Shown here in pieces: positions 30,877 to 33,941 of a DNA stretch of 33,941 nucleotides (position 1 is the stretch's first letter; every line of letters starts with the position of its first letter). Location: NCBI GenBank assembly GCA_002897735.1, contig BDTW01000054.1, positions 1-33,941 on the forward strand, written 5' to 3'. The DNA is from a bacterium BMS3Bbin13 (GTDB lineage: Bacteria > Pseudomonadota > Gammaproteobacteria > 21-64-14). The translations under genes were made by a program, and so were the position numbers. Below the pieces are notes generated by a model that did not search any database, had not been told where the DNA came from, and worked only from the letters and a program-made list of their open reading frames with translations.

Positions 30877-31725
30877 ATGATCCAAACCCCGGACCCGGAG
30901 CCCATAGCGCGCCTGCTGGCGATCATGGCGCGCCTGCGCGACCCCGAGCACGGCGGTCCGTGGGACCGTCGGCAGACCTTCGCGACCATCGCGCCCTATA
31001 CCATCGAAGAGGCCCACGAGGTCGCGGACGCCATCGAGCGCGGCGATCTCGAAGCGTTGCGCGGGGAACTGGGCGATCTGCTCTTCCAGGTGCTCTACCA
31101 CGCGCGCATCGCCGAGGAGGCGGGGGCGTTCGACTTTTACGACGTGGTACGCGCGATCACCGACAAGCTGATACACCGGCACCCGCAGGTGCTCGGCGGG
31201 AGCCCGCGGGGACGTGCCGCCCCCGGGCCCGGGGCATGGGAGGGGCACAAGATCCGCGAGCGGCGCGCGCGCGACGCCGGGCCGGATGCCGATCCCAGCC
31301 TGCTCGCCGACATCGGCCGTGCGCTGCCGGCGCTGATGCGCGCCCTCAAGCTTCAGAAACGCACCGCCCGGGTGGGCCTCGACTGGCCCGGCGTGGAACC
31401 GGTGCTGGAGAAGCTCGAGGAGGAGGTCGGGGAGCTGCGCGCGGCGCTCGATCCGAACGAGGCCCCGGAACGGGTCGCGGAGGAACTCGGCGACGTGCTG
31501 TTTACGTGCGTGAACCTGGCCCGCCATGCCGGCGTGGACCCGGAGGCCGCGCTACGCGGCGCCAATACGCGCTTCGAACGTCGCTTCCGCTACATCGAGT
31601 CGCGGCTGCGGGAACAGGGCCGGGTTCCGGAGCAAGCGCCGCCGGAGGAACTCGACGCGCTGTGGCGGGAGGCAAAAGCAGAGGAGACCGGGGCGACGAC
31701 TACGGGGGAACCCGGGGACCGGTGA
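30877..31725 (+). CDS. mazG: MazG nucleoside triphosphate pyrophosphohydrolase
   Basis: A 282-residue enzyme that hydrolyses NTPs and dNTPs to monophosphate and pyrophosphate. Two MazG domains are visible. The first has YTIEEAHEVADAIE and GELGDLLFQVLYHARIAEE (metal ligands Glu44/45, Glu48, Glu64 and Asp67). The second has EKLEEEVGELRAAL and EELGDVLFTCVNLARH. GGPWDRRQTFATIAPYT is the family N-terminal motif. ATG 30877 was chosen by the family start, although the frame is open from 30718. The C-terminus extends about 30 residues beyond the usual end as an acidic tail. It converges on the RibD-C gene with five bases between. Confidence 0.93.
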   Translation: MIQTPDPEPIARLLAIMARLRDPEHGGPWDRRQTFATIAPYTIEEAHEVADAIERGDLEALRGELGDLLFQVLYHARIAEEAGAFDFYDVVRAITDKLIHRHPQVLGGSPRGRAAPGPGAWEGHKIRERRARDAGPDADPSLLADIGRALPALMRALKLQKRTARVGLDWPGVEPVLEKLEEEVGELRAALDPNEAPERVAEELGDVLFTCVNLARHAGVDPEAALRGANTRFERRFRYIESRLREQGRVPEQAPPEELDALWREAKAEETGATTTGEPGDR

Positions 31726-31737
31726 CCCGGTCACCGG
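31719..31737. terminator. Perfect palindrome over both stop codons of mazG and the RibD-C gene
   Basis: CCGGTGACC-C-GGTCACCGG has 9-base perfect arms. The left arm contains the mazG stop (31723-31725) and the right arm the stop of the minus-strand gene (31731-31733). No T-tract is present. Confidence 0.5.
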
Positions 31738-32582
31738 CCCGAACCGCCCTCCCCGGCGCGACACTCATAAGCGCCGAAGATCTGGCCCGTACCGCCCGGC
31801 GCGTGTGCATCGTAATACAGGGAAGTGAGCCGCAAGTCCGCACTCGGGTCGAGCGCCGGCCCCTCGAGGATCGAATCATATTCGGAACCGCCGAGGAGCC
31901 GATGGGCATGGGTCAGATAGAGTCGGTCGAGGACCCCGGCCGAGACCAGGGTATAGAGCAGTTGGGGTCCGGCGACGGCGCACAGACTGTAATAGCCCTG
32001 CTCCACGAGGGCATCGACGAGGCGCCGGCCCTCGACGCGACGCCCGTTCCCGGCGAACAGCACGCGCAGCCCGAGGCGCTCCAGGGCATCGACCCGCTCC
32101 GGATCGGCACCTTCTCCGGTCACGACATAGAAGGCCCGTTGGTGCAGGTCGAGCCCCGCCGGGACCGGCAGATCCAGGCTGGCGCTCACCACCGCCACCG
32201 CCGGCTGCGACGCCAACCCCTGCGCCTTGCGCCAGTCCAGCAGGTCCGCGTACGGCGCCCGGGTACTCACCGGGAGGTGATCCTGCGCCTGTCCCTGCGC
32301 CAAGTCCCGGAGATAGCGGGCACTCGTGATGAGCACGTGGGCCTGTGCGGCGAGTTCCTGGAACAGCCGCCAGTCCCGCGGATTGGCGATGGCCGCGGGC
32401 ACCCGGTGGCGGCGCGTGCCGGGCTCGACCAGCGCGATGCGCCCGTCGAGACTGGCGATGAAGTTGCTGTAGACCACCGGCTTTGCGGCGTCGGCGCGGT
32501 GCAGCCCGTGAGCGAGGTAGGCACCGGCGAGGGCCACCGGAGTCGGCGGTCCGGGATAGAGACGCAGCAAGGGCTCGCTCAT
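31731..32582 (-). CDS. RibD C-terminal-domain reductase (dihydrofolate-reductase fold)
   Basis: A 283-residue protein with the RibD_C / pyrimidine-reductase fold. Typical elements are VVYSNFIASLDGRIALVEPG near residues 36-55, the HVLITSARYLRD segment, then GLRVLFAGNGRRVEGRRLVDAL, and LYTLVSAGVLDRLYLTHAHRLLGG near the C-terminus. No cytidine-deaminase domain is present, so it is not a full RibD. It would be an NADPH-dependent reductase of a pterin or pyrimidine, substrate unknown. ATG 32582 follows AGGAA at about nine bases. Its promoter region is shared with the candidate CRP site and small RNA on the other strand. Confidence 0.8.
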   Translation of the reverse strand: MSEPLLRLYPGPPTPVALAGAYLAHGLHRADAAKPVVYSNFIASLDGRIALVEPGTRRHRVPAAIANPRDWRLFQELAAQAHVLITSARYLRDLAQGQAQDHLPVSTRAPYADLLDWRKAQGLASQPAVAVVSASLDLPVPAGLDLHQRAFYVVTGEGADPERVDALERLGLRVLFAGNGRRVEGRRLVDALVEQGYYSLCAVAGPQLLYTLVSAGVLDRLYLTHAHRLLGGSEYDSILEGPALDPSADLRLTSLYYDAHAPGGTGQIFGAYECRAGEGGSGR

Positions 32583-32637
32583 ATCCGTTAGGTTCCTGAA
32601 GGCTGTGGGCGAGGGGCGCCGGCGCCGGTACGGAAAG

Positions 32638-32680
32638 TGTGACGCACCTCACATTCTCAGTGTGCGCGGTTTCTCAGAAT
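32638..32680 (+). promoter_or_regulatory. CRP-type site with class II promoter
   Basis: TGTGA-CGCACC-TCACA (32638-32653) is a perfect match to the CRP/Vfr core half-sites with the correct 6-base spacer, flanked by AAAG and TTCT, as in the consensus. A -10-like CAGAAT (4/6) at 32675-32680 predicts a start at about 32687, placing the site centre at -41.5, the class II activation position. It could also act on the minus-strand RibD-C gene, whose start is about 60 bases away. Confidence 0.55.
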
Positions 32681-32686
32681 CCCGGC

Positions 32687-32799
32687 CGGCCCATCCACCA
32701 TACTACCCCCGTTCTCGGTCCCCAAGTGCTCGGAGCGGGAACCTCCTCTTGGACACAATCCAAGATTCCAGCCGGCGACCCCTCGCCGGCTTTTTTTTT
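32687..32799 (+). ncRNA. Candidate CRP-controlled small RNA, about 113 nt
   Basis: A predicted plus-strand transcript from the class II promoter to a strong terminator, with no ATG inside. It folds into three stems: CCCGTTCT/GGAGCGGG type (32708-32715 with 32732-32739, two G-U pairs), CTTGGA-CACAA-TCCAAG (32748-32764), and the terminator. The linker before the second stem carries ACCTCCTCTT (32741-32750), complementary to a ribosome-binding site, as in several known regulatory RNAs. CCTCC could instead pair with GGAG at 32732-32735. The start site is predicted only. No known RNA family was recognised. Confidence 0.5.
32770..32799 (+). terminator. Strong intrinsic terminator
   Basis: AGCCGGCGA (32770-32778) pairs perfectly with TCGCCGGCT (32783-32791) around CCCC, followed by nine T (32791-32799). 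This is the only textbook intrinsic terminator in the window. No plus-strand gene ends before it, which points to a noncoding transcript. Confidence 0.9.
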
Positions 32800-32895
32800 G
32801 GCTCGAAGCCGGTCGGACTCAGGGGTTCGCCGCGAGGCGGGCGGGAGCCGGTTCCCCGGCCCGCAATCCCGCAACGGCACCGCAAGCGACGCTCG

Positions 32896-33330
32896 TCAGC
32901 CCGCGGGCGGTGCACCGAACAACCAGTAGTAACCGAAATTATAGAAGACGTGCAGGAGCATGGGCAGGCGCAGGCGCCGGTCGCGATCCATGAAATAACC
33001 GAACACCAGGGACGGAAAAAAGGTCAGCGCGGCCCACAGCGGCGGGTGGTGGATGAAGTGCAACGCGGCGAACAAGACGCTGGTGAGAAGATTCGCGGCG
33101 CTCAACGATCCGATGCCGCGCGTGCCCAGAACGTCGCGCAGCAACTGCTGCACCCCGCCGCGGAAAATGAACTCCTCGAGCAGCGGAAAGGCCAGCGCCG
33201 GAAGCACGAAGTCGAGCGGCGCACGCAACGGCCAGCCGAGATCCCCCGGGCGGGCACCCAGGACAAACAAAAACAGCCAGAAGAGCGGGCCGGCGGCGAG
33301 AGCCGCGACGAGCTTCCGGTCGCGCCACAT
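32896..33330 (-). CDS. CPBP-family glutamic intramembrane protease
   Basis: A 144-residue membrane protein, short for the family, with about four hydrophobic segments. The three CPBP motifs are intact: Glu52-Glu53...Arg57 (LLEEFIFRGG), Phe87...His91 (FAALHFI), and His127...Asn131 (LHVFYNFGYY). It would cut a membrane or prenylated substrate. Its small size and the flanking sequence (WRDRKLVAALAAGP, PLWAALTFFPSLVFGYF) remind me of the protease of JDVT-CTERM sorting systems, but no such substrate is in the window, so this is only a suggestion. ATG 33330 follows GGAGGGG. No operon partner is seen. Confidence 0.85.
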   Translation of the reverse strand: MWRDRKLVAALAAGPLFWLFLFVLGARPGDLGWPLRAPLDFVLPALAFPLLEEFIFRGGVQQLLRDVLGTRGIGSLSAANLLTSVLFAALHFIHHPPLWAALTFFPSLVFGYFMDRDRRLRLPMLLHVFYNFGYYWLFGAPPAG

Positions 33331-33941
33331 GGACCCCTCCGAGTGAGATCACGCCAGGAGAAAGGCGGCGGGGGCGATCCCCGAACGACCCGGCGCCGGA
33401 CTCCATGCCCTGCGCCGCCTCCCCGGGATTCTCACGGCGGTCGATTGAAACACCCTCGGGCCTCGGGATCCGGACCCGAGGTCTTTCGCCGCCCGTGAGC
33501 GACGATCAGTCGGATTGAGATGACCCGAACCTCCGGCCCCCGTTTCCCGAACGGTAAAGCGTCACACGACAACGCCCTGACCAGACAAGAAGCTTCAAAA
33601 ATAAACGAGCCTGCCGGGACACTTGAGAACTCACGGCGAGCATAACACGGCGGGAAAGCAAGTGGCAGGCAAAGACCGATCATCAGATTCGACAGCCACA
33701 CGATCCGGTCGCCGCCGCGTTAATTGCGCGCTCGATCACGCCGTTTGCCTTATCCCGATCCCCCACAGCATATGAACTTCGTTGGGCACCCTGCCCTTGA
33801 GCCCTTGAGAAATAGGCATACTATAATTGATGCTAAGCCGAATCCTCCGATCGTACAATATGCCGCGTCGGCACTATTCGAATAGTGCCGACGCGGCCTA
33901 ATACGCTGTTATGCCTCATAGGAACATCATCCGCTGAGAGG
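33331..33941. other. Gene-free right edge of lower GC
   Basis: No gene is supported in the last 610 bases. Base composition drops noticeably after about 33540. A tandem GCCCTTGAG repeat (33793-33809) lies 12 bases before a TATAAT (33822-33827), and a perfect 36-bp palindrome follows at 33862-33897. A 7-base inverted pair, AGGCATA (33814-33820) and TATGCCT (33910-33916), flanks them. A gene may begin beyond the window. Confidence 0.5.
33862..33897. repeat. Perfect 36-bp palindrome
   Basis: GCCGCGTCGGCACTATTC (33862-33879) is followed directly by its exact reverse complement (33880-33897). As RNA or single-stranded DNA it gives a 16-bp stem with a TCGA loop. It is followed by CCTAATA, not a T-tract. 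It resembles neither the GTAGG-linked palindromes nor the 92-bp element elsewhere in the window. Confidence 0.9.

Follow-up and report, generated by a model that had tools for sequence, protein, structure and literature searches.

A candidate genus-restricted small RNA with a CRP site and an anti-Shine-Dalgarno stretch in a gammaproteobacterium

The plus strand of the window, that is, the whole stretch of 33,941 nucleotides analysed in this study, is predicted to encode a small RNA of approximately 89 nt with three stem-loops (32711-32799), as suggested by folding, alignment with a congener and a covariance model. We consider it reasonably likely that this is a genus-restricted, CRP-linked small RNA, probably bound by Hfq, whose predicted function is to mask ribosome-binding sites in trans. 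The mechanism itself is already established and has its precedent in CyaR, a CRP-activated RNA with a seed that pairs with Shine-Dalgarno sequences (PMC11795201, PMC4098024). Here, a promoter with a conserved -10 would drive transcription of the plus strand between about 32711 and 32799, and CRP-cAMP would tune it, most likely upward. Hfq would probably bind the U-tail, and the RNA may then pair through CCUCCUCUUGG with the Shine-Dalgarno regions of mRNAs, a pairing that would block ribosome loading and repress the targets by masking.

An earlier note on this DNA had proposed a carbon- or cAMP-controlled regulatory RNA. The conserved, structured non-coding segment, the CRP site and the genes for CRP, a cyclase and Hfq all agree with that proposal, whereas the class II promoter geometry attached to it is not supported. 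If confirmed, the RNA would add a CRP-linked, ribosome-site-masking small RNA outside Enterobacteria, and would suggest that the CyaR logic, in which high cAMP leads to synthesis of the RNA and hence to silencing of its targets, arose more than once.

Structure and conservation of the RNA segment

The predicted fold of 32711-32799 has a free energy of -39.3 kcal/mol (z = -5.4), a value reached by none of 200 shuffles, and the homologue in the congener has a z of -4.0. Three stem-loops are predicted, in keeping with the three stems described earlier. All pairs of stem-loop 1 (32711-32742, plus strand; 7+3 bp with a 10-nt loop) are kept in both genomes, with one U-G to U-A change. In stem-loop 2 (32747-32765, plus strand) the outer pairs are broken or rearranged in the congener, where two pairs are lost and one inner pair is gained. 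The third is an intrinsic terminator (32770-32799, plus strand), recognised by a terminator scan, with a 9-bp stem (arms 32770-32778 and 32783-32791), nine T at 32791-32799 and one compensatory A-U/G-C pair. Stems 1 and 3 stay paired in the congener despite two pair changes, G-U to A-U in one case and A-U to G-C in the other; the covariation counts were matched by 243 of 500 shuffles and, coming from two sequences only, carry no statistical weight. Homologues in which both the CRP site and compensatory stem changes are missing had been named as evidence that would refute the RNA; in this one congener the half-sites and stems 1 and 3 are kept while stem 2 is partly broken, and the proposal survives. 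It was also observed that CCAAG in loop 1 (32722-32726) duplicates the 3' arm of stem 2 (stem 2 region 32748-32763). Loop 1 CCAAG could pair with the 5' arm of stem 2, CUUGG, and the seed region may thus switch between two pairings.

The terminator is the sole terminator-like site found by the scan within 31500-33941. The nearest upstream gene on the plus strand, mazG, ends at 31725, and there is no plausible plus-strand gene to own the terminator, whose 9-bp stem and nine T agree with the first description. The absence of any ATG in 32687-32799 was likewise borne out. A coding reading was rejected: GTG frames are open, but they carry non-synonymous changes in the congener, and a 1-nt insertion in the congener's terminator loop breaks any frame there. 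The segment is a free-standing intergenic unit with a terminator and no conserved ORF, which are the features of an intrinsically terminated trans-encoded small RNA.

Among 55 relatives searched, a single true homologue emerged, that of the congener (contig JALUXX010000004.1), and all conservation figures given here rest on it. The gene order mazG - reductase - RNA - mrtJ is common to both genomes. Identity to the congener is approximately 90-94% over the RNA segment (61/68 without gaps at 32711-32778) and 17/20 at 32691-32710, compared with 21/37 between the CRP site and the promoter in an alignment anchored on that site, about 74-79% for the coding sequence on either side and about 50-65% for the remainder of the intergenic region. 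From about 32690 the two genomes become more alike, up to and including the terminator, and the surrounding genes are less well conserved than the RNA. A chance combination of CRP site and terminator, with no functional RNA, could be argued from the fact that only two genomes stand behind the alternative. It is nevertheless very improbable, given that the conservation step covers exactly the promoter and the RNA, that the identity of the RNA exceeds that of the adjoining coding DNA and that the folding lies far outside the shuffles.

Promoter and CRP site

A CRP-type palindrome, TGTGACGCACCTCACA, was recognised by site search at 32638-32653 (plus strand). It matches TGTGA-N6-TCACA perfectly, as had been claimed, and is the sole perfect match in the window; such a match occurred in none of 100 window shuffles; the whole 2.69-Mb assembly has two, this one among them. 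The half-sites are 10/10 identical in the congener and the spacer 2/6. The genome encodes a CRP equivalog (NF008732, scoring 351 bits where the cut-off is 266) with the recognition helix CSREMAGRVLK, in which the Arg-Glu-Arg pattern known from CRP of E. coli is retained. An hfq gene is also present in the genome, together with a gene predicted to encode a class III nucleotidyl cyclase.

The most plausible -10 element is CATACT at 32699-32704 (plus strand), which reads GATACT in the congener and so keeps A2 and T6 in both genomes; no -35 was recognisable for this promoter. With standard spacing from this element, transcription would begin at about 32711, where stem 1 also has its first base. 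The promoter proposed earlier consisted of a -10 box CAGAAT at 32675-32680 (plus strand), a start at 32687 and the CRP site at the class II position of -41.5. The box does exist, but it is CGGAAA in the congener, with A2 and T6, the two most important bases, both lost, and it is probably not used. A class II CRP-activated RNA starting at 32687 would give CRP its optimal position of -41.5, and conservation does climb from about 32690; even so, this arrangement is quite unlikely, given the loss of the box in the congener and the presence at 32699-32704 of a better-conserved -10 whose start falls at the base of stem 1. The conserved -10 moves the implied start from 32687 to about 32711, and with it the CRP site from -41.5 to a centre at -65.5.

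For the reading of CRP as an activator, the spacing of -65.5 is the weakest link. Cooperativity of E. coli CRP at this position is only about 2-fold, compared with about 760-fold at -61.5 (PMC6301791). If confirmed, CRP would here be working at a spacing nearly inactive in E. coli.

The CRP site also lies upstream of a divergent gene for a RibD_C-type reductase (31731-32582, minus strand), recognised by domain/profile search. The small RNA could thus be real but controlled otherwise, with the CRP site acting mainly on this neighbour, for example as a repressor site. Its placement between divergent promoters and the poor activating position of -65.5 in E. coli are compatible with such an arrangement, as is the congener, where 32.5 bp separate the site from the divergent start codon and CRP could block RNA polymerase. 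We regard it as unlikely. The distance from the CRP site to the -10 at 32699-32704 is equal in both genomes, whereas that to the divergent start codon varies (63.5 bp here vs 32.5 bp in the congener), which ties the site to the RNA and not to the neighbour; furthermore, the RibD_C-type gene shows no -10-like box that would fit a class II start.

The other perfect TGTGA-N6-TCACA site of the assembly (G000:C56:16147-16162, locus L112) is located between divergent genes that resemble, by eye, dxs and ispH. If this assignment holds, the site would place isoprenoid synthesis under CRP.

Anti-Shine-Dalgarno stretch and possible targets

Ribosome-site masking by the RNA is suggested by an anti-Shine-Dalgarno stretch, ACCUCCUCUU, at 32741-32750 (plus strand; read as ACCTCCTCTT in the window DNA), which is identical in both genomes. 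This seed is complementary to the Shine-Dalgarno sequence, as is that of CyaR, and its CUCC (32743-32746) is unpaired with a probability of at least 0.97 in both genomes.

Targets were sought with AAGAGGAGGT and with AGAGGAGG-N3-10-ATG, using the reversed pattern as control. Seed matches before ATG were not enriched and were in fact rarer than the reversed control pattern, and no seed-match target was conserved between the two genomes. Two further occurrences of AAGAGGAGGT were found in the genome. One of them, which extends to a 12-nt perfect complement, CCAAGAGGAGGT, forms the Shine-Dalgarno region of an ORF (G000:C16:114-135, minus strand; locus L148) that has a signal-peptide-like start, MRVATGTSLRGVRAMLAAFTAAGLLILTVPPARADTVT, and is truncated by the end of its contig; no clear orthologue of this ORF was found in the congener. 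In the congener itself, AGAGGAGGT is the Shine-Dalgarno sequence before an exported-protein gene (G001:C16:265454-265472, locus L154), and the protein has a VPLPA-type sorting signal that scores slightly under the NCBIfam cut-off. A more specific, and doubtful, idea is that this deep gammaproteobacterial lineage evolved a counterpart of CyaR independently, one with atypical CRP spacing that links cAMP to surface and exported proteins with C-terminal sorting signals.

The gene downstream of the RNA and convergent with it (32896-33330, minus strand) encodes MrtJ, the CPBP protease that serves the JDVT-CTERM protein-sorting system (NCBIfam; 99 bits vs a cut-off of 75). The scan of 31500-33941 found no minus-strand terminator between mrtJ and the RibD_C-type gene, and the RNA lies opposite the gap between these two minus-strand genes. 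This position would suit an RNA acting mainly in another way, as an antisense to an mrtJ-ribD transcript, by sponging or by titration of a protein, and the conservation of loop 1, which equals that of the seed, could be read similarly. Such a role is unlikely, as the two genomes agree in every base of the anti-Shine-Dalgarno stretch, whose core is unpaired, and the RNA overlaps no coding gene.

Relationship to known RNAs and distribution

The earlier note had assigned the RNA to no family it knew, and this is supported at the Rfam gathering threshold, at which no family matched in the window. The closest analogue is CyaR, which had been missed. Like CyaR (RyeE, Enterobacteria), the RNA is CRP-linked, intergenic and short, ends in a terminator and occurs in a host with Hfq; the seed of both has ACCUCCU, complementary to Shine-Dalgarno sequences, and the CRP site is situated upstream of the RNA promoter, its half-sites being kept in the congener. 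Unlike CyaR, which has a conserved outer-membrane target, ompX, the RNA has an unusual CRP spacing and no conserved target was found by the seed search; the Rfam CyaR model was unmatched in both genomes even at E values up to 10.

The Betaproteobacteria toxic small RNAs (RF02278; Burkholderia ncS03, ncS05, ncS27 and ncS62) are also similar, with a hairpin, a terminator and a CU-rich unpaired stretch directed against ribosome-binding sites, whereas the RNA here has an additional 5' stem-loop and a CRP site. CU-rich unpaired stretches of these Burkholderia double-hairpin RNAs have been predicted to cover ribosome-binding sites (PMC5688073). RF02278 was rejected as a family assignment: its threshold is 50 bits, and the RNA scores 28.1 here and its homologue in the congener 17.0. 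The working parts are therefore common to CyaR and RF02278, while neither family's model is passed. Anti-hemB (RF02837) resembles the RNA in a 5' hairpin starting CCCCG followed by two hairpins with a terminator, but was rejected too (29.3 bits here and 20.9 in the congener vs a threshold of 49.5), this score being sub-threshold and derived largely from the terminator. The sub-threshold matches to anti-hemB, RF02278 and suhB all score lower in the congener, and those to suhB and anti-hemB appear to be mainly terminator, since unrelated terminators from other genomes score similarly (25.8 bits for suhB and 20.8-23.3 for anti-hemB). Spot 42 is another CRP-controlled small RNA, bound in its case by Hfq, but no Rfam match links it to the RNA here; Spot 42 is repressed by CRP (PMC4098024).

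With the covariance model, only the two congeners gave convincing matches among 369 Gammaproteobacteria (114 bits, the next being 27). There were weak matches in nine other genomes. Eight were inspected and rejected as terminators or their reverse, with neither a CRP site nor an anti-Shine-Dalgarno stretch; the ninth is a partial match of 26 nt. A CRP site followed after 70-100 nt by ACCTCCT was also confined to the two congeners among the 369. On 80 contigs with a locus homologous to that of the RibD_C-type gene, the only related RNA was the one in the congener, and plasmids and phages gave no match.

Two further features were noted downstream of mrtJ. A stretch of 43 nt at about 33509-33551 shares 81% identity with the 3' half of a tRNA-Pro(CGG) gene that the congener has in the corresponding position; ARAGORN recognised no tRNA in the window, and the stretch therefore looks like a tRNA relic. 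Near the contig end, a 21-bp inverted repeat occupies 33859-33900; its arms adjoin without a spacer and are 95% complementary.
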